A stretch of 28,494 bases of DNA. Source: a virus. The position numbers and the translations under genes are program-made. The notes beneath the pieces are model-generated. The model had not been told where the DNA came from and ran no database searches. It worked only from the letters and a program-made list of their open reading frames with translations. The DNA is taken from positions 1 to 28,494 of the IMG/VR virus record IMGVR_UViG_3300007539_000138. One strand, 5' to 3'. The stretch's first letter is position 1; each line of letters starts with the position of its first letter. Positions 17,326-26,986 of the stretch are shown piece after piece.

Positions 17326-18192
17326 TTATTTATACTGGAAAAACCCAAGCCCGTCTTTAATATAAGTTCTAAAGTTAATATCCGTTCTAACTTTTCGTTC
17401 AAAATTACCTCTATAGAGCTTATCAACCTTAGGCATAACTACAATAATTTCAGCATTGTAATCTTTGTTTTCATCTAGAGGTGCGCCGCCTGCATTTGGA
17501 TTTAATCCATCAAAATGTAAAATTAGCCCTTGAAATGAATGATTATCTTTCCAATAATTCGCTAACTCAAAAGTTTTCCAAGGATTAGGAAATCCTTTTC
17601 TATCCAAAACTTCATAGACAACTACTCTACCCTGAGTTTGCAAATGTCTAATATCACCAGATACTAAATTTTCGCCAGCGGTTGGTTTGACTAAACTTTC
17701 AGTAATTGATAAACTAAAATCTCTAAACTTTTTATTATTATTAAACCCTAAAATCAAAGGAACATGAGCATATAGTCTTTGAGCTATAGTTTTTCTTTCG
17801 CTGAAGCTTAGATGATTTAATGTGGGTTTGCTACCAGGAGTGTTAGCAAAAGATGACATAGTAAGACCTTTTGCCAATTTTGTTCCCATATCAATCTCAG
17901 AAAGCTTATATGGGTCATAGATGGGGTCTGGCAATATCTTTTTAGGCGAATACTCTTCTTTATATTTTTTAGAATTTATTGAGCCTGTAAAGGAATCTAA
18001 TCCATATTTTTTACTTGACTCCATATCATAGTATGTTCTAATTCTCTTAGGAACAGGAACAAAATAATCAGCAGCAATAATACCTTTAGCAGTGCATGAA
18101 CCTAATAATGCACCATCTCCTCTATTGTTTGGATCACGTAGTAGAGACCTAACTTCTCTGGTGCTAATTGTATTAAGATTAAATTGTACCAT
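17326..18192 (-). CDS. Tail-tip region protein of unknown function, possible degenerate M15-like fold
   Basis: This 288-aa protein is not recognised with confidence. It lies between the needle gene and gp25, and its start overlaps the needle stop (TAATG); the needle's last codons supply GGAGGA as its ribosome site. Residues 157-232 (RDFSLSITESLVKP, RHLQTQGRVVVYEVLD, ANYWKDNHSFQGLILHFDG) have the strand-loop-strand-helix-strand order of phage M15-type peptidases, in which S-H, G-A-D and W-H give the metal ligands. Here only His183 is a plausible ligand; the Asp and final His positions are not filled. No signal peptide or membrane helix is seen. A structural baseplate or hub-associated role is likely from context. 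The last codons TAT AAA TAA also form the next late promoter. Confidence 0.5.
   Translation of the reverse strand: MVQFNLNTISTREVRSLLRDPNNRGDGALLGSCTAKGIIAADYFVPVPKRIRTYYDMESSKKYGLDSFTGSINSKKYKEEYSPKKILPDPIYDPYKLSEIDMGTKLAKGLTMSSFANTPGSKPTLNHLSFSERKTIAQRLYAHVPLILGFNNNKKFRDFSLSITESLVKPTAGENLVSGDIRHLQTQGRVVVYEVLDRKGFPNPWKTFELANYWKDNHSFQGLILHFDGLNPNAGGAPLDENKDYNAEIIVVMPKVDKLYRGNFERKVRTDINFRTYIKDGLGFFQYK
17327..17334 (-). promoter_or_regulatory. T4-type late promoter box (TATAAATA), built into a stop codon
   Basis: TATAAATA is made of the final Tyr and Lys codons and the TAA stop of the 288-aa gene. It drives gp25, gp6 and the gp7-like gene. Confidence 0.7.
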
Positions 18193-20003
18193 TATAAAAT
18201 TCCTCCGTAATAATCAATCATACTCTGAATAGTAGGTCTAGGGATTTTACCATCATATCTAAGCTTATCTGCTTGTCTACCTCTATCATCTGTAGAAAGA
18301 TTGAGGTTACCATTATTAAACCCTGTCCACCACTGAGTTACATTCTTATTTCTTCCGCTTACCGCAGCAGGCGAGAATTGAGCGCCTTGAATAAGAGCAG
18401 CTTGTGTAGCAACATCATACTTATTTAAGTTGTTTTTCCAAATACCATCAATACCATGAGCCCTAGTCCAATCAGGATAAGCTCTAATTTGATCTGCAAA
18501 AGAAGCATTTTGGTACTGACTCCAAGTTAATCCGCCTAGAGTGCCACTACCATCTGCTGTATGCCCCCAAGTATTTTCGCCCATTTGGAAAGCGCCTTTA
18601 TAATATTCACTATTTGTCATGCTATAAGGGTGACTAAATAAGTTACTATTCAATGGATCTCCGGATTCTGTACGAATTACTTCTGCAACAGCGGCTGGGT
18701 CAGCTCCAATCTCTCTAGCAACATCATTAATTGCTGTTTCAACTTCTGCTGCTGTCGAACCACCCAATAAGCCTTGTGCTTCGGCCTTTTGTAAATCTGC
18801 TCTTTGCTTTTCTGTAATGCTTCCTGTTGTAGCAGGTGGTTCGCCGTCACCAAATGTGTCTGGTCTGTTATCGGTGTTATCTGTTGTAGATTCACCAGAA
18901 GAACCACCTTCACCTTTAACACTCTGGCTAATCTTATCATCATCAACCTCTACCTTTCTAACACCCAAGGTCTTAGTCTGGTTAAGAGCTTCATTCATAT
19001 TAGAATGTGTTGGTTCAGCAGTTGCATCAGTGTTAACCGCTGTATTCTGTACAGAATACCCTTGAGCTGATCCGACCCCGCCGCCGGCTTCAGGGTCAGC
19101 ATATTCTTGAGAATTAGTTATGTCTGATCTTATTGCTTTTTCAGCAGTACCTTTTAGATCACCATGGAAGGTAGGAGCTTCAACTCCTTCTTCAAATGAA
19201 CCTGAGTGGCCGTAGATATTCTTAGTGTACATAATCATCTCATCTCCGCCAATAGTGCCTTTATGTCCGGCAACTGTAACACACTTACCTAGCATAAAGT
19301 TTTCTGGAGCAGATGTAGTAATACGCTCTTCGGCCGTTTCTCTAATCTCACCACCTGCAATGATTTCAATATCACCTGGCGCTGAAATCTTAAGATCATT
19401 TTTAGAAACAATATGAGTAGTCTTCATACTTTCAACTGTATAGTCACCAAGGACAACTTCAGATTTATTACCTTGTGTTGTGACAACTCTATCACCTACA
19501 AAGTTTTCGACCTTCTCCTGTTTGATTTCTTCCACTTGTTTGCCTTGAGTTTCTAGTGTGAAGTTGTTACACTTAATATTAAAATCACCAGTAACATTCA
19601 AGTTCAAATTGCCAGTGTAGGTGATGTCGCCATTACCATTGACTACCATCAAAAATCCATTACCGACTAGTTTAACCATTCTGCCTACGGTATTAATAAG
19701 CATACCGTCTTCACCTTCACCGGGATACATTTCAATACCATGACCATCCGCATGTGTCCAGGTAAGTCTCTCTGCTTCAGGCGTATCATCAACTTCAATT
19801 CTGTGGCCTGATTTTGACTCTTCTACTTTGTTGTGAGGATACTCAGGTTCCCAATCTTGAGGTGGTAAATCAACACCTTCTGGAACTGGTGGATATACAA
19901 TTCTAGGCTCCCATTCACCTCTAGCAGCTTTGTTAGTTGTGGCTTCCTGCTCATATCCAGGTCTAGGAAAATTACCTTCTGGGTCCTTAAATCCTGTTGA
20001 CAT
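18192..20003 (-). CDS. Tail needle protein (gp5 C-terminal type) with transglycosylase-like domain
   Basis: This 603-aa protein begins without an OB fold. Residues 66-130 (SGHRIEVDDTPEAERLTWTH, then INTVGRMVKLVGNGFLM) match the start of the gp5/VgrG-type needle. About 130-290 is a beta-helix with short strand repeats (GNLNLNVTGDFNIKC, DYTVESMKTTHIVSKNDLKI). A low-complexity linker follows (about 300-395, rich in S, T, G, D). The C-terminal 200 residues look like a lytic transglycosylase or goose-lysozyme-type domain: VAEVIRTESG with Glu446 as candidate catalytic acid, then YKGAFQMGENTWG (468-480). The start overlaps the amidase-like stop (TAATG) and has AGAGGA upstream. In T4 the lysozyme lies before the needle; here a wall-active domain lies after it. 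Confidence 0.75.
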   Translation of the reverse strand: MSTGFKDPEGNFPRPGYEQEATTNKAARGEWEPRIVYPPVPEGVDLPPQDWEPEYPHNKVEESKSGHRIEVDDTPEAERLTWTHADGHGIEMYPGEGEDGMLINTVGRMVKLVGNGFLMVVNGNGDITYTGNLNLNVTGDFNIKCNNFTLETQGKQVEEIKQEKVENFVGDRVVTTQGNKSEVVLGDYTVESMKTTHIVSKNDLKISAPGDIEIIAGGEIRETAEERITTSAPENFMLGKCVTVAGHKGTIGGDEMIMYTKNIYGHSGSFEEGVEAPTFHGDLKGTAEKAIRSDITNSQEYADPEAGGGVGSAQGYSVQNTAVNTDATAEPTHSNMNEALNQTKTLGVRKVEVDDDKISQSVKGEGGSSGESTTDNTDNRPDTFGDGEPPATTGSITEKQRADLQKAEAQGLLGGSTAAEVETAINDVAREIGADPAAVAEVIRTESGDPLNSNLFSHPYSMTNSEYYKGAFQMGENTWGHTADGSGTLGGLTWSQYQNASFADQIRAYPDWTRAHGIDGIWKNNLNKYDVATQAALIQGAQFSPAAVSGRNKNVTQWWTGFNNGNLNLSTDDRGRQADKLRYDGKIPRPTIQSMIDYYGGIL

Positions 20004-20665
20004 TAATTAAATCCTCTTTCTCGACTCATACTAATAAGAGTTTCTGTTGTAGGCGCACCATAATCAGATAACTGTGATATTCTAAGAGTATTTCTTTTAC
20101 TAAAAGACTTCTCAATATATCTAATAACATTAAATCCAGGATCATAAGCACTTGGATTAATGTTATCATGACCCCATACTTGGCCTCCAGGTAAAATAGA
20201 ATAGAAACACTTTATGAATTTCTTAAATGTTTTCCATTGACCAGGTGTACAAGTATTCATATCTTGTACACCATTATTAAATCCTCCAACAAAGGCTATA
20301 CTAATGCTTCTTTGTAAATGATTAGAAGCTGTTGTATGATTAGTTGTTTTACCAATTAACTTGTTCACTTGAATATTACCATTTTGTAGAATTAAAAAGT
20401 GAAATGGAATTTCGGAAATGTTCATTTCGGACCTATAAAAATTTTCCAAATCTTCTTTTTCAAATCTTTGTCTGTAATCCGTTTTTGTATTATACACCAC
20501 AACCTGAGTGTATTCTCTTTCGCAAGACCTCATGTAAGTCTCTAGAGCTTCATAAGTTTCAATGTAATCACCTTCTTTTACTTCTGAAGGAATGAAAACA
20601 GGTGTCTTATCTAAAGGAAAATCCGTTAGATAAGTTTTAAGATAGGGAGAAAAAATAGTGTACAT
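20003..20665 (-). CDS. Amidase_2 / T7-lysozyme-like protein with altered active site
   Basis: This 220-aa protein aligns along its length with T7 lysozyme, an N-acetylmuramoyl-L-alanine amidase: VVVYNTKTDY (residues 55-64) with FVHCSATKP, IPFHFLILQNGNIQ (86-99) with VGYHFIIKRDGTV, SISIAFVGGFN (120-130) with SIGVCLVGGID, CTPGQWKTFKKFI (139-151), and VWGHDNINPSAYDPGF (163-178) with LRAHHEVAPKACPSF. By this hand alignment T7 His17 becomes Tyr58, Tyr46 becomes Phe88, Lys128 becomes Ser172 and Cys130 becomes Asp175; only His166 keeps a zinc-ligand position. It is probably not a normal amidase, though it may still bind peptidoglycan. The gene follows the M23 gene, whose TAG stop lies in its AGGAAA ribosome site, and overlaps the needle gene start. 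Confidence 0.65.
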   Translation of the reverse strand: MYTIFSPYLKTYLTDFPLDKTPVFIPSEVKEGDYIETYEALETYMRSCEREYTQVVVYNTKTDYRQRFEKEDLENFYRSEMNISEIPFHFLILQNGNIQVNKLIGKTTNHTTASNHLQRSISIAFVGGFNNGVQDMNTCTPGQWKTFKKFIKCFYSILPGGQVWGHDNINPSAYDPGFNVIRYIEKSFSKRNTLRISQLSDYGAPTTETLISMSRERGFN

Positions 20666-20676
20666 GATTTAATTTC

Positions 20677-21717
20677 CTATTTAATGAAATTACAAGGGGG
20701 TTGAGGTACATTATTATGTCTAATTTCAAAATGAACATGGGGATCAGTACCTACTGCATTACCAGAAGTTCCCATATATCCTACTAATTGCCCTCTCTTC
20801 ACATTTTCTCCGGGTGACAGTCCAGCTAACTCACTTAAGTGAGCATACGCTGATGTTAACCCATCTCCGTGATCTAGTTTTACAGCAATTCCGTATCCGA
20901 CGGATAGCCCATCTTCACTCACTCTTTTACTATACATTACTTTACCATCTCTAGCCGCATAAACTGGAGTACCATAATCAGCGAATATATCTAATCCTTG
21001 GTGAGATCTACCCCCAGATCTGGGATCTCCCCAATCTCCACAGTTGTAGCTTCCTCCTGGAACAGGATTGTCCATTTCTCCAGAAGATACTGTTTCCTCC
21101 GCACTCTTATTCAGATCATCACCATAAGACTGTGCCTGACTGGTGCCCTCGCTTCCGCCCCCACTGGTATTACTATATTTGACAATTTGATCTTGAGCGT
21201 AAACAATAGTATTATCACAAAAGATTTTAAACAAATCTCCGGCATGAGGTCCAGCTGAAGCTGGTATAGTGGTACCATCACGTCTTGTCAAGCCACTATG
21301 TTTAGTTTTATCATTAGCATCGGTAAATGTTTTAGGAGGTCCAGATTGACCAGGTGCTTTGCCTCCAGGAGTTAAAGAACCGGTGGCTTCAGAAGAATTT
21401 GAAGGTGGATTATATTCTGGTTGTTTGTCGAACTTTAGTTGCTCATTGTTAATAACTCTTTCTGCCTGATCTAAACCACCTTCATAATAACTTTTAGGAT
21501 CCTCAATAGGGTCTGTTTGATTCTGAGGTGGAATATCAAAACCCTTCTCTTGCTGCGCCAGTTCATCTGGATATGCAGAAGAATTATTTTGCTCTTCTAA
21601 AGACTTGCCAACTGTATCATTCTGTGCTATAGTCTTTTTTCTTAAATCCCTGAGAATTTGGTCCTGATATACAGGATATTGCCTATTAATATCAATAGCT
21701 TCTATTGTCATTCCCAT
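20677..21717 (-). CDS. M23 metallopeptidase (peptidoglycan endopeptidase), tail-associated
   Basis: Residues 228-335 of this 346-aa protein are an M23/LytM domain: RSHQGLDIFADYGTPVYAAR, then YGIAVKLDHGDGLTSAYAHL, GENVKRGQLVGYMGTSGNA and DPHVHFEIRHNN. Zinc ligands His239, Asp243 and His329 and the catalytic His293 and His327 are all present, so it should cut peptide cross-links in peptidoglycan. Residues 1-225 are a hydrophilic, low-complexity segment (PPQNQTDPIEDPKSYYEGG; PGGKAPGQSGPPK; SGGGSEGTSQ). There is no signal peptide, in keeping with a virion-borne enzyme. The start at 21717 overlaps the upstream stop (TAATG); an in-frame ATG at 21711 right after GGGA is an alternative. It probably helps the tail cross the cell wall. 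Confidence 0.85.
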   Translation of the reverse strand: MGMTIEAIDINRQYPVYQDQILRDLRKKTIAQNDTVGKSLEEQNNSSAYPDELAQQEKGFDIPPQNQTDPIEDPKSYYEGGLDQAERVINNEQLKFDKQPEYNPPSNSSEATGSLTPGGKAPGQSGPPKTFTDANDKTKHSGLTRRDGTTIPASAGPHAGDLFKIFCDNTIVYAQDQIVKYSNTSGGGSEGTSQAQSYGDDLNKSAEETVSSGEMDNPVPGGSYNCGDWGDPRSGGRSHQGLDIFADYGTPVYAARDGKVMYSKRVSEDGLSVGYGIAVKLDHGDGLTSAYAHLSELAGLSPGENVKRGQLVGYMGTSGNAVGTDPHVHFEIRHNNVPQPPCNFIK

Positions 21718-22070
21718 TAGATACTATTCCTATCTAAAATTTCATAGGCCATATTAACTGTTGCATCAACATTGCCGTCTTTGATAATATCGTTATGAAA
21801 AATTGCTGCAGCTTCTTCTATTGTAGATGCTTTTCTAAATTCATCTCCGTGAGATTTACTTTCTTTTCTAATCTCTTTTAGCAGAAAGGTGGTTTGAGCA
21901 ATTTGATCTTCTAGCTCTAAGTTGTTCTTAAAACAAAAATTTTTATATCTTGTTAATTTGTCACCTGAAAACCTGTACAAGCCAAAGACCTCTAATGTGG
22001 CATCCGGAGGCTTGTTGTAGATGGTCAAATTACTAACCGGTGTGCGCCTTTCATAATTAACTTTAGCCAT
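21717..22070 (-). CDS. Half phage-tail-lysozyme-like protein lacking catalytic part
   Basis: Residues 29-117 of this 117-aa protein (FGLYRFSGDKLTRYKNFC, DQIAQTTFLLKEI, GDEFRKASTIEEAAAIF, TVNMAYEIL) follow the second half of phage tail lysozyme domains: a GLFQW-like stretch, then R-L-F-A, a D-Q-F-L-EL helix and a final AT-EA-IF helix. The first half, which carries the catalytic Glu, is absent. The end of the upstream OB-fold protein (ASQAGLSQEAGATIAGYLRS) resembles the missing first helix. The frame of this gene is open upstream to 22097, so a single base change in 22072-22097 would fuse both genes. It could be a scaffold relic, a partner in a split domain, or the product of a sequence error. 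Match is by eye; moderate confidence. Confidence 0.5.
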   Translation of the reverse strand: MAKVNYERRTPVSNLTIYNKPPDATLEVFGLYRFSGDKLTRYKNFCFKNNLELEDQIAQTTFLLKEIRKESKSHGDEFRKASTIEEAAAIFHNDIIKDGNVDATVNMAYEILDRNSI

Positions 22071-22071
22071 T

Positions 22072-22626
22072 CTATTGTTCTCCCTGATTATAAGATCTTA
22101 AGTAACCAGCGATGGTAGCACCAGCTTCTTGTGATAAACCTGCTTGAGAAGCAAGCTCAATCACTACCAACTCTCCTGCCAAATTCACCGATATATCACC
22201 TTCAGAGTTGAAACTTGTAGGAGTTTGTCCTATGGTGCCTTCAATACTAACTGGTCTAATACGTTTTTCTGGTGTAATGTCATCTCCAGATTTCAATTCA
22301 ATTTTAGGCATAGTGCCAAAAATAACTGGACTTTGAGAATGCTTACCGTCCATAAACATACCAAAGACCCAAGAACCATTTTCAATTCCGTTTGGGCTTC
22401 TACCTACACCAGATACGCCACCATAAGTGGCTGGCACTAACACTGTAGCCCAAGGTAACTTTTCTGTAGGAACATCTTCTGTATATGCATTGTGTAGCCC
22501 TAAAATGCGGACTCTAACACGACCAAGAAAATCAGGATCATTGGTATTATCTTCTACAATACCAATAAAAAATCTAACATCATCACCGTAAAATTCTTTT
22601 TGTAAATTATTTAATATATCTGCCAT
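22072..22626 (-). CDS. gp5: gp5-type OB-fold hub protein (N-terminal part of gp5)
   Basis: Residues 17-107 of this 184-aa protein are the OB domain of T4 gp5: VRFFIGIVEDNTNDPDFLGR, VRVRILGLHNAY, VPTEKLPWATVLVP, SWVFGMFMDGKHSQSPVIFG (T4: WFIGVVEDRMDPLKLGRVRV, IPTEKLPWMSV, TRVYGHFLD). In T4 this domain sits on the gp27 trimer and is joined to lysozyme and needle in one chain. Here the chain ends after an extra 75 residues, and the other gp5 parts are separate genes. The final 30 residues (ELASQAGLSQEAGATIAGYL) look like the first helix of a tail lysozyme. Its start overlaps the hub gene's stop (TAATG), so the two are probably translated together. Confidence 0.8.
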   Translation of the reverse strand: MADILNNLQKEFYGDDVRFFIGIVEDNTNDPDFLGRVRVRILGLHNAYTEDVPTEKLPWATVLVPATYGGVSGVGRSPNGIENGSWVFGMFMDGKHSQSPVIFGTMPKIELKSGDDITPEKRIRPVSIEGTIGQTPTSFNSEGDISVNLAGELVVIELASQAGLSQEAGATIAGYLRSYNQGEQ

Positions 22627-23987
22627 TAGACTTGATTCACTTTTCCAGCTTCTTGTGATAGACTTGGTAATGTATCACTCTTTGCGAGAGTTAAGGTGGA
22701 TATCCATCTATTTTTGAAGATTGTATGTTTAATTCCATATATCAAATATCTACCAGATCTCTTTTTGTCTTTAATTCTTTCTCTAGAAACATTTTCTTCA
22801 TCAATAGGTATATCTTTTGTAATAAACACGTCAATCATTTTACCCAAATTTTCAACACCAAACTCTAGACCTGGCACAGCAATATTGATAGGTGATTGAG
22901 ACATGAAATTATATAAAGCTTGTGATTCTGCTTTCTTCTTATGTCTTTCCATATCCTCTTCCTCATTATAAGAGAAAATACCATCATCAAATAATTTTCT
23001 AGTCACCAATTGAGACCAGTAGGTGTTTTGACCTTCGTGATACGGTCGACCAATTTTAAAATTAGTATCATAATTATGATCTGTGGTTCCATTTGGTTTA
23101 GGTAATTTATCTAAAGGTGTTGGTAAGTCAAATCTTTTTTCATGACTACCATATTCATAAGGATCAATGTAATTAAAATAACCACCATATACATTTCTCG
23201 ACATAGCTAATAGTGTGTCTTCATTGTTACCTATCGTATAACCAGAAATTTGTTTAGCTATTGTATCATAATCTTCGCTACCGCCAACTAATTTGTGAGT
23301 TAGTCTAGTGAATTTATAAGGCTCTGAGTTTATAGGAGATTGATTTAACAGTGTCTCTAAACTCTTTAGTTGAAGATTATCATCACTCATTGTGGAATAA
23401 AGGTAAAATGGTGAACCATTAGATGTTGTACATCTACCTGTCATCCAAATTGCTGCCGCTAATGGATTAGTTGTGAAAGGAAAAACAACTCTCATGTTTG
23501 ATTGATAAGAAGACTCTGTGCTTACGCTCACACCTAATTGCTCTTCACAAACTTGTTTACAAATGTCTTCTGGTTTACCATCATAAACTTTACTAAATCT
23601 TGTAGAATTACTAAGCATAGCATGTTCTTCAATCAACTTTACAACATAGACCGAAGTGCCATCATTCAATTTCTGACCGTAACTAACACCTGTACAAATA
23701 AACTCTTTAGATATTTTAACATTTTCATCTTTATCAATAATACTCAGATAAACTCTTTCTTGGCCAATGAAAGGTGCTGCATTAGAAGCATTAGAAGAGT
23801 CCACAATAATTAATTCAGCCGACATGTAAGGAAGACCTATGTTTTCAAAGAATCTAACTTCCATTGTGATTTTTGAAATATCAATTGTAGGAAACCTTTC
23901 AGACTGAACAAATACTCTTGTCTGTCCTACATAATAAGGAGTAAATCCATCATTTTTTACTTGATTGCTAGACGCAACATCTACCAT
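22626..23987 (-). CDS. gp27: Baseplate hub subunit, gp27-like
   Basis: This 453-aa protein (T4 gp27 is 391) starts with a domain typical of gp27-like hubs: TRVFVQSERFPTIDISKITM, EVRFFENIGLPYMSAELII (residues 45-63), then FICTGVSYGQKLNDG and KVYDGKPEDICKQVCEEQLG (about 136-155), a LysM-like or secretin-like helix pair seen in this family. The C-terminus has RSGRYLIYGIKHTIFKNRWI (416-435), the usual exit strand. gp27 trimers form the central hub onto which gp5 docks and which connects to the tube. Position right before the gp5-type OB gene supports this. Family match is by pattern; alternatives are another hub paralogue. GGAGG precedes the start at 23987. Confidence 0.7.
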   Translation of the reverse strand: MVDVASSNQVKNDGFTPYYVGQTRVFVQSERFPTIDISKITMEVRFFENIGLPYMSAELIIVDSSNASNAAPFIGQERVYLSIIDKDENVKISKEFICTGVSYGQKLNDGTSVYVVKLIEEHAMLSNSTRFSKVYDGKPEDICKQVCEEQLGVSVSTESSYQSNMRVVFPFTTNPLAAAIWMTGRCTTSNGSPFYLYSTMSDDNLQLKSLETLLNQSPINSEPYKFTRLTHKLVGGSEDYDTIAKQISGYTIGNNEDTLLAMSRNVYGGYFNYIDPYEYGSHEKRFDLPTPLDKLPKPNGTTDHNYDTNFKIGRPYHEGQNTYWSQLVTRKLFDDGIFSYNEEEDMERHKKKAESQALYNFMSQSPINIAVPGLEFGVENLGKMIDVFITKDIPIDEENVSRERIKDKKRSGRYLIYGIKHTIFKNRWISTLTLAKSDTLPSLSQEAGKVNQV

Positions 23988-23989
23988 TA

Positions 23990-26182
23990 TTAATAGCCTC
24001 CGCTACTTCCAGAAGAAGATTCAGCTACCACTACATCATTAGTATTTCGATCTGGAATTACAGAATATTCACTATAGCCTTGAGATTGTGAATTTTGAGG
24101 CTCTTCTTCAACTGTAGCCTGGTTTAATATACTTTTAAATTGTGCATCAAATTGCTGTATAATACCTGGCTTAATAACTTTAATTGATTTGACTTCATCA
24201 TTTTCTCTAACATATTTTTCTCGAAATGTCACCGGCAGTAAAGTTGCAGGCTCAAGTTTGTCATAGTTAGCAGTAATATAAGCATCATATCTTGTTTTCA
24301 ATTCATCGTAAGCATCGGTTTTATTTGTAAAATCTCCGATGATTTGACTTTCAAATAATCCAGTTTCTGAATTATAAACACTAACTGTATCGGTACTGTT
24401 ACTGATAATAGGCGTCGATCCATAGAAAGTTTTATAGAATTTTTTAACCTCAGGTGGGTTGGCCGCCAGTGCAGCACCAAATGCCAGCTGTCCTATTAAG
24501 GTGGTAAGATCCAATTGACCTGCAGCTTCTGCCGCAACATATGCATCAGATTGCTCTGTAGTTAAAATGAAATAAGGAAATGCTGCTAATGCTGGAGCAT
24601 AGGTTGCTACAGTGGCGTGACCTCCACTGACTGCAATTCCTTGAAATATCGCTACTTGATTAGGAATGTCAGCATTGGCTTCTGTATAGTCATCAATAGT
24701 ATATCCCATTACAATACTAATATTTTCGGTTAGAGTAGGGTCAACATCAATAAGTTTGTCAATAAGAAAGAGATAATCAAACTCAATTGTTATTCTATTT
24801 TCAAGAATATCATTGGTCAATGAATCTGCTATTTTAAAAGGATTTTTTGACAAAATATCACCAAAGGCGGAAATCAAAGTTTGTTGATATGATTCACTGA
24901 CCGTAGTTAGGTTAAAGACTGCTGTAAAAAATAAGTTATACTCAATCAAACTAAGAGTTTTACCGGTCTGCTTCTTTGCTTCAAAGAGTTGTAAGATAGC
25001 AAAGTAAAGCACAAGTATGTTTGCTCCTGGTAGAAGGTTTCCTAGAATAGCAAACTGATTGGCTTCCGTTAAGCTAAAATTAACATTAATATCGTTAAAG
25101 TTGGATAAATTAGGTCCTTCTTCTAAATTAATTATCCAAGTTCCGGCATTGTCAATGTTTTGTGCTAGATTGGTATAGTCCCATAATCCAGTATTAGGAT
25201 CAAGCGCTCCTGTGTCTTGAATGCTATACACATTCTGACCTTGAACCACTGTGGTTGCAACCTCAAAGTTTTTGAGAGGAGATAAAGATGTGGCACTAGT
25301 AGCTGCTGCGGCCGCTTCGGCGGCTTGTTGAGTGTATCCTAAAGCTAAAAACTGTGGGATTAGCACCTCTGCTTCTGCAGCTATGATAGTCTGAAGAGTG
25401 GTCTGACTAATACTATTCTTATCATTAGTATATATTACTCCGTCTTCTCCAGCAGCAGTGTTCGCAGTAACATCAATGTAGTTATATAAAGTAGGGCTAT
25501 ATGACAGGCTATAAGAAGTTCTCTGAACATAAGGAGCCCTAGGAAAAATATCTACATATTCACCATCAGTGTTTTCGTAATGATGTTTAGAATTATATTC
25601 ATCTATCACTCGATCAACTTTTAGTGAAGCTAGGCCAATTGTTTCGCCATCGGCATCTTCTACAATTCTGACACTTTCAGCATCTTCATCATCTTCAAAA
25701 TTAATAATATCAGAGGCACTTTGATTGACGCCAGGAGAAGGGTCGGGAATAAGCTTTACAATAATTTGACCTAAGTCTGGTCTTCTCTTCAAGATTTCGC
25801 CATGAGCGCCAGAACTAAGACCTCTGATAATGTCACCTACCTGAAATCGACCCGTCATATCTTCTCTGGTTACGAGAACCTTATGAGGATGTTCTCTTTG
25901 AACTTTTTTTACAATTTCTTTTTCAGTTAAAGGCCAACCTCTTAATCTCAGTTCATCATTCATTAAGAAAAAGGTCCAGTGATAATCAGGCGAGCCATAT
26001 AATTTTTGAGAAATCTGATCAGGTCTCTCACCGTCTTTAATTTGATACGTTTGATAAAATCCAATATCATCTTTCGCTCTATCAAAGATATCGATATAAA
26101 CACCAATGTCCTGAACCATCGTTTTATTGGTTAAGCCACCAAAAGGATAAGAAATTTTAGGGTAATTAGTAAAATATGACAT
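23990..26182 (-). CDS. gp53: Baseplate wedge gp53 with a ~400-residue insertion
   Basis: Residues 1-95 of this 730-aa protein hold the gp53 signature: VYIDIFDRAKDDIGFYQTYQ, KDGERPDQISQKLYGSPDYH, WTFFLMNDELRLRGWPL. It is followed by a small beta module with a SSGAHGEILKRRPDLGQIIV stretch (123-142). The usual gp53 ending (TFREKYVRENDEVKSIKVIK, PGIIQQFDAQFKSIL, 652-686) comes only at the far end. Between about 240 and 645 lies an unrelated Ala-rich, largely helical region (AEVLIPQFLALGYTQQAAEA, ANILVLYFAILQLF, YVAAEAAGQLDLTTLIGQLA). A Gly/Ser-rich tail ends the protein. T4 gp53 is 196 aa. gp53 is part of the wedge core and joins neighbouring wedges. GGAGGAAA precedes the start; the stop is two bases before the hub gene. 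Confidence 0.8.
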   Translation of the reverse strand: MSYFTNYPKISYPFGGLTNKTMVQDIGVYIDIFDRAKDDIGFYQTYQIKDGERPDQISQKLYGSPDYHWTFFLMNDELRLRGWPLTEKEIVKKVQREHPHKVLVTREDMTGRFQVGDIIRGLSSGAHGEILKRRPDLGQIIVKLIPDPSPGVNQSASDIINFEDDEDAESVRIVEDADGETIGLASLKVDRVIDEYNSKHHYENTDGEYVDIFPRAPYVQRTSYSLSYSPTLYNYIDVTANTAAGEDGVIYTNDKNSISQTTLQTIIAAEAEVLIPQFLALGYTQQAAEAAAAATSATSLSPLKNFEVATTVVQGQNVYSIQDTGALDPNTGLWDYTNLAQNIDNAGTWIINLEEGPNLSNFNDINVNFSLTEANQFAILGNLLPGANILVLYFAILQLFEAKKQTGKTLSLIEYNLFFTAVFNLTTVSESYQQTLISAFGDILSKNPFKIADSLTNDILENRITIEFDYLFLIDKLIDVDPTLTENISIVMGYTIDDYTEANADIPNQVAIFQGIAVSGGHATVATYAPALAAFPYFILTTEQSDAYVAAEAAGQLDLTTLIGQLAFGAALAANPPEVKKFYKTFYGSTPIISNSTDTVSVYNSETGLFESQIIGDFTNKTDAYDELKTRYDAYITANYDKLEPATLLPVTFREKYVRENDEVKSIKVIKPGIIQQFDAQFKSILNQATVEEEPQNSQSQGYSEYSVIPDRNTNDVVVAESSSGSSGGY

Positions 26183-26185
26183 TAA

Positions 26186-26986
26186 TTAATTTCCTCCTTC
26201 AACATCATCTTTATCTAGAGGTCTTTCTTCAACAAAGTTTAGAGCAAGTTGCGTTTCATTGAATCTACCGTCTTTAAATAATGAAGAAGAGCGTGGATTA
26301 AATGTGGTGCTTATGCTAGTTAAGTAGCAGGGCAAGAGTTCAGGAACATCCTGCATCTTTTCATTCTTGTATCTAAACTCAATAAAAAATCTAGTAGGAA
26401 AGGCATATGCAAGTTCACCAGCTCTTAATGTCGGGTATGCATTAACTCTGAAAAATTTAACAATCTTATTGATTTCAATTGCCTCTTGCTGACTTGCAGG
26501 AGATAATAAAAATGTAAAGTTAAAACTTCTAATAGCTACATCTCTAAACAAAGATCGTTTATGAGGATTAGCTGTAATTTTAGTTGCAGATGAGATGCCT
26601 TCTGCAATATCTCCTGGTGCCAAAGTTTGAGCGCCAAGATTTAATAGTGCTGCACCGCCACCGTTTTCTACTAAGCTTCTTGCGGTACCAATAGTACCAT
26701 CGGCCGAAAGCAAATTGTTTAGTTGAGAAGTCCAATTGTTAAATGAATTCTCTAATGTGCCTGGGGGTCCTTTAGAAAGTTCAACACCCTTTTCGACTAA
26801 GTAGCCGGCTAAGTTTAGATTAGCATTATCATATACAATACCATCTGCAAAATTCATACCTTCTGGCATGTAAAGAATAGCTCTATCGCCATCTGCTCCG
26901 CTGCCTGTAGATGATTCTGCGGTGAAAAATATAGAAGCTTTATATTTTTCATCTGGAATAAGAGGAAACTTGTAGCCTTCAGCCAT
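26186..26986 (-). CDS. gp48: Baseplate tail-tube cap (gp48-like)
   Basis: This 266-aa protein has its best landmark at residues 138-169 (TANPHKRSLFRDVAIRSFNF, TFLLSPASQQEA), then IVKFFRVNAYPTL and a C-terminal FFIEFRYKNE, LPCYLTSISTTFNP and NETQLALNFVEERPL. This arrangement belongs to the gp19-fold family of tube proteins that includes gp48 (tube cap) and gp54 (tube initiator). Size, and position before gp53, fit gp48; gp54 is the alternative. These proteins form the first rings on the hub from which the tail tube grows. It is the first gene of the minus-strand cluster; AGGATAAAAC precedes its ATG and a late promoter lies 35 bases upstream. It ends DVEGGN. Confidence 0.7.
   Translation of the reverse strand: MAEGYKFPLIPDEKYKASIFFTAESSTGSGADGDRAILYMPEGMNFADGIVYDNANLNLAGYLVEKGVELSKGPPGTLENSFNNWTSQLNNLLSADGTIGTARSLVENGGGAALLNLGAQTLAPGDIAEGISSATKITANPHKRSLFRDVAIRSFNFTFLLSPASQQEAIEINKIVKFFRVNAYPTLRAGELAYAFPTRFFIEFRYKNEKMQDVPELLPCYLTSISTTFNPRSSSLFKDGRFNETQLALNFVEERPLDKDDVEGGN

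Follow-up and report, generated by a model that had tools for sequence, protein, structure and literature searches.

Gp53 of phage T4 is a small conserved part of the contractile-tail dome (PMC3004832). In the virus record analysed here, an ORF at the corresponding place encodes 730 aa, which raises the question of what the additional residues are, how they were acquired and what they may do in the baseplate. The stretch of DNA that was analysed (the window) comprises positions 1 to 28,494 of IMG/VR record IMGVR_UViG_3300007539_000138. The original prediction held that the ORF encodes a gp53 more than three times as long as that of T4, with a long helical insertion between its conserved ends.

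The attribution to gp53 is confirmed by matches to Pfam Phage_gp53 (PF11246; aa 37–78, E 4.2e-5, 23.8 bits with a cutoff of 21) and to PHROG 232, 'baseplate wedge subunit' (aa 1–97, E 6.7e-23). When T4 gp53 (5hx2_F) is searched with a profile built from the long forms, two blocks align at a whole-sequence E of 1.5e-5; block 1 corresponds to T4 residues 46–97, the LysM part, and block 2, which is weak (5.7 bits) and contains the IKVIKPG ending, to T4 residues 151–192. The ORF lies between a gp48-like tube cap ORF and a gp27-like ORF, and the same order is found in the related phage C48C1. The window ORF has the N-terminal gp53/LysM-like domain, the C-terminal segment and the gp48-to-gp27/gp5 position of a T4-type gp53. 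It departs from this type in size; most short forms collected here have 163–298 aa, a compactness that is typical of the family and not strictly defining, and the ratio to the 196 aa of T4 gp53 is as large as had been stated. The ORF is a gp53 with an extra domain.

The layout of the protein is given in the table below. Short relatives of 238–258 aa can be aligned over their full length with the two flanks but have nothing corresponding to aa 214–647, so the insertion between conserved gp53 ends is genuine. It had been placed at 24248–25465; the location is correct, and the true insert is slightly wider. The beta domain that precedes it, common to short-form relatives, lies outside the T4 gp53 profile match. 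The 40-aa Ser/Gly-rich C-terminal tail had been overlooked. Alignment A6 was used for these comparisons, as in A1 the C-termini of the short forms were misaligned by MAFFT.

Table. Features of the window, in window coordinates
Feature	Positions	Strand	Basis and remarks
1771-aa ORF	4400–9715		Matches PHROGs 358 and 877 (unknown function)
288-aa ORF	17326–18192		No Pfam or PHROG match
Tail-lysozyme gene region	18192–22626		Divided into separate ORFs
gp5 C-terminal/needle-like ORF	18192–20003
Amidase	20003–20665
M23 peptidase	20677–21717
Partial Phage_lysozyme2	21717–22070		Profile positions 45–115 of 140, just below cutoff
Gp5_OB alone	22072–22626
gp27-like ORF	22626–23987
gp53 (baseplate wedge) ORF, long form, 730 aa	23990–26182	(-)	Pfam and PHROG matches; flanked by gp48-like and gp27-like ORFs
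gp53 aa 691–730, Ser/Gly-rich tail ending in Tyr, predicted disordered	23993–24112	(-)	Long-form comparison, AF2
gp53 aa 648–690, conserved C-terminal segment (PVTFREKY...IKVIKPGIIQQF)	24113–24241	(-)	Short-relative alignment; weak T4 match, residues 151–192
gp53 aa 214–647, clade-specific insert domain, ~434 residues	24242–25543	(-)	Missing in short relatives, present in long-form relatives; AF2
gp53 aa 500–574, helical hairpin unit B	24461–24685	(-)	AF2; resembles unit A in L045/L046, absent from L049
gp53 aa 371–456, helical sub-bundle, hydrophobic stretch aa 379–397 (Kyte-Doolittle 1.91)	24815–25072	(-)	AF2, hydropathy
gp53 aa 260–297, helical hairpin unit A	25292–25405	(-)	AF2; shorter in window phage than in L045/L046
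gp53 aa 101–213, beta domain (FQVGDIIRGLSSGAHGEI) and EYNSKHHYENTDGEYVDI linker	25544–25882	(-)	Alignment A6, AF2 strands; common to short-form relatives
gp53 aa 1–100, LysM-like gp53 core	25883–26182	(-)	PF11246, phrog_232; aligns to T4 gp53 residues 46–97
gp48-like tube cap ORF	26186–26986

The commonest residues in the insert are Ala, Thr and Leu. The enrichment first described for Ala, Leu, Asp and Thr is borne out for three of these and not for Asp, which accounts for 26 of 438 residues in the insert vs 23 of 214 in the N-terminal part. The GC and GC3 contents of the insert (0.377 and 0.267) are close to those of the N-terminal part (0.358 and 0.238), and the neighbouring genes are similar. 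The insert matched no family or sequence in Pfam, PHROG, NCBIfam or the PDB, and tblastn matched nothing in cultured phage records; a lack of resemblance to known phage proteins is thus supported, and the insert corresponds to no curated family, PDB sequence or cultured phage sequence searched. The best-placed cultured phages have only the first ~20% of the window gp53 in common with it. No description of long gp53s was found in the open-access literature.

The fold of the insert was modelled with AlphaFold2 (AF2). The single-sequence model had a pLDDT of 33; with an MSA combining 23 long and 13 short forms (36 sequences), which is shallow for the insert with its 22 other long forms, the pLDDT reached 76 and the pTM 0.68. 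Confidence exceeds 83 over most of aa 460–640 and is low at 234–257, 299–327 and 692–730. The insert is predicted to be an alpha/beta domain with nested helical bundles. Its modelled helices form a bundle (371–456), hairpins (500–574) and a last helix (621–638), in line with the helical character proposed from the sequence; the MSA-based model also contains six strands (218–229, 465–474, 489–498, 578–587, 598–604 and 609–615), which that description did not include. In a Foldseek search of the PDB, gp53 itself tops the list, no match has E <0.001 and no solved structure resembles the insert, so its function is not inferable from its fold; the matches among viral models are gp53-like proteins or partial.

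Queries with gp27, with gp4 and with profiles brought in the relatives, whereas exact peptide patterns from the insert, which overlook diverged sequences, gave no hits in viral and genome contigs. The collection comprises 117 distinct complete gp53s, of which 40 have 500–751 aa, five have 343–476 aa and 72 are shorter. In a tree built from the core columns only, the long forms and L182 (349 aa; relatives are designated here by L numbers) make up one clade with an SH-aLRT of 94 in the full tree, L182 lying inside. After removal of long outliers and near-copies, all insert-bearing rows fall on one side of a single branch (SH-aLRT 96). The insertion site is the same in many independent contigs, and no insert-free allele was seen within the clade, the smallest form being the minimal insert of L182. 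The long gp53 is the standard form throughout its clade, so the view of it as an oddity of a single phage, implied by the original prediction, has to be given up. In the collection searched, no cultured phage belongs to this clade, and the insert domain is undescribed.

The inserts differ greatly in size. L182 has ~110 aa at the same gp53 site, with motifs common to the larger inserts; the inserts of L060 and L066 have ~245 aa and those of the window's subclade (L044, L045, L046, L049) 383–459 aa, the whole series running from ~110 through 203–242 to 383–459 aa. Helical units have been gained or lost within the window's own subclade; L049 is without unit B, and the window phage and L049 have a short unit A. 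Units A and B are alike in L045 and L046 (score 78, with 0 of 500 shuffles as high), and in the window protein itself no such duplication is visible. In L175 (1707–2294), and also in L176 and L181, a different region of ~200 aa is nested in the same gp53 site. Growth of the insert by nesting is the simplest reading of this series. A second insertion site, used by several lineages inside and outside the long clade (L038–L040, L061, L063, L058, L103 and L112), is located in the gp53 beta domain near window aa 147–162.

A terminal Tyr after a Ser/Gly-rich stretch is present in 36 of the 40 long forms vs one of 77 shorter forms. The tails are otherwise only ~31% identical; L175, L176, L181 and L182 are without the tail, and L185 looks frameshifted. 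Because conservation sits at the very last residue, the sequences suggest docking of the tail.

Other genes of the window show further peculiarities. Most short-gp53 relatives have a longer OB ORF (~245–380 aa) in the tail-lysozyme region, which in the long clade persists in L171 and L182. Shortening of gp5 correlates with long gp53; a single event behind both was rejected, as L171 has a long gp53 and an unshortened gp5 ORF of 292 aa. The 288-aa ORF is conserved upstream of gp25 across the clade. The 1771-aa ORF has Arg/Pro-rich stretches in the middle of the protein.

The insert is under purifying selection among close relatives; dN/dS is 0.08–0.21 in 10 of 11 computable close pairs, and 0.42 in one very close pair. 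Across subclades its median identity is 22% vs 57% for the LysM core (aa 1–100). L060 and L138 are 97% identical over 8.67 kb with one sharp exception, a 500-nt block with ~20 mismatches per 100 nt that lies entirely within the insert. L060 resembles L066 more closely within the insert than on either side of it; therefore, the tract was probably imported from an L066-like phage, although this is a single pair and may reflect a mix in metagenomic assembly. Adaptive swapping was rejected, since the proteins encoded by the two alleles are 90% identical and dN/dS is 0.14, values that point to recombination and not to diversifying selection. A modular domain that folds separately would agree with the purifying selection and with a recombination tract that does not extend beyond the insert. 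Originally, the domain was also predicted to stick out of the inner wedge, where it might alter the shape of the baseplate.

Our preferred account, about evenly poised between right and wrong, is that the domain was gained once, was enlarged by accretion and braces the inner wedge or serves it as an adaptor, while the tail is a tether. In the ancestor of an uncultured T4-like clade, a small alpha/beta domain would have entered the loop that joins the gp53 beta domain to the C-terminal helix; most of the same clade also carries the Tyr-ended Ser/Gly tail, and subclades would then have enlarged the insert with helical bundles or other modules nested inside it. T4 gp53 is added to the wedge after gp6, and its binding triggers the immediate joining of six wedge complexes (PMC3004832). 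As in T4, a virion presumably has six gp53 copies, and the unchanged core would keep the usual wedge-joining work, because it is conserved. The insert would fold independently on the inner wedge and may brace it against, or adapt it to, the hub, the adjacent wedge or the fibre base; the flexible tail may dock its terminal Tyr into a partner. The low insert identity across subclades (~20%) counts against such a role, being loose for a brace bound to conserved partners.

That divergence favours the main rival, in which gp53 would bear an accessory domain for receptor binding or adhesion, a module binding the host surface from the baseplate. The confinement of the L060/L138 tract to the insert and the proposal that extra sheath domains help adsorption (PMC9230969) also favour this rival, as does the 32.5% identity over 122 aa (E 9e-4) of the nested L175 region to a putative tail fibre protein (MW202613.1). 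This resemblance, however, is weak and limited to one subclade, and the window's own insert matches no known receptor-binding or fibre family. Purifying selection and the 90% protein identity of the swapped allele argue against the rival, T4 gp53 lies in the upper dome around the hub and not at the rim (PMC3004832), and the window encodes tail-fibre genes as well; a surface-binding function is thus judged unlikely, if worth serious attention. The insert could also be a tolerated, self-folding decoration accreted passively at a permissive loop, contributing at most to general virion stability and having no specific partner. Large length differences, helical units gained and lost in the window's subclade and the second permissive site in other subclades are compatible with passive accretion, but a function that has been maintained is indicated by purifying selection, by persistence of the insert in every clade member seen and by the terminal Tyr, which hardly varies; this explanation seems improbable.

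Hydrophobic helices of the insert might alternatively help the baseplate to engage or breach the outer membrane. The stretch ILGNLLPGANILVLYFAIL (see the table), similar peaks in L045, L046, L049 and L061 and a weak subthreshold Pfam match to DcuC prompt this idea, but the inserts of L063, L058, L065 and L059 have no such peak, and in the AF2 model these helices belong to a helical series, which would suit a soluble bundle. A membrane role was rejected as a general explanation, hydrophobicity not being conserved among the inserts, and appears very improbable for the domain at large. An assembly chimera, an intein or a homing element may look alike at first sight, each producing a large in-frame insertion in a conserved gene. 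Such an origin is scarcely credible: independent contigs share the insertion site, which eliminates a chimera; neither the window gp53 nor other insert-bearing proteins scanned against Pfam had a match to Hint or another intein/endonuclease family, which argues against an intein; and GC and GC3 of the insert match the flanks, with no insert-free allele in the clade.

A combined possibility, to be regarded as rather doubtful, is an exchangeable adapter or surface-binding module in an inner-wedge protein together with a Tyr-ended tether; if true, the uncultured clade would have a baseplate contact absent from T4 and from cultured cyanophages. Across a whole environmental clade, the nesting of domains has made gp53 more than twice as large, with a Tyr-ended tail in addition; large additions are tolerated in the inner wedge and apparently favoured by selection. 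Long gp53 offers a concrete target for cryo-EM.

The long gp53 shares with T4 gp53 (PF11246; PDB 5HX2, 5IV5) the LysM-like core, the C-terminal segment and the identity of a baseplate wedge protein; the T4 protein, in contrast, has nothing equivalent to the insert or to the tail, and its profile match leaves out the beta domain. The gp53s of Kyanoviridae and relatives (C48C1, S-RSM4, Pelagibacter phage Mosig; PHROG 232) have the N-terminal core in common with it, and phage C48C1 also the beta domain and the gene order gp48-gp53-gp27-gp5, but their annotated genes encode ~180–240 aa, with neither insert nor Ser/Gly-Tyr tail. Tail sheath proteins have become larger through domains placed away from the surface that contacts the tube (PMC9230969). 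In them, too, added or nested domains enlarge a conserved core of the contractile tail, although the protein is the sheath rather than gp53 and the domains are mostly Ig-like. The wedge protein gp31 of cyanophage A-1(L) contains an insertion domain with two conformers that occupy the hub cleft or hold the long tail fibre, and the C-terminal tail of the LysM protein gp16 enters the hub barrels or sits on the tube initiator (PMC10966104). The A-1(L) insertion has ~100 aa and belongs to a different wedge protein; the likeness to the long gp53 is that a wedge protein holds an extra domain and that the C-terminal tail of a LysM baseplate protein is functional.
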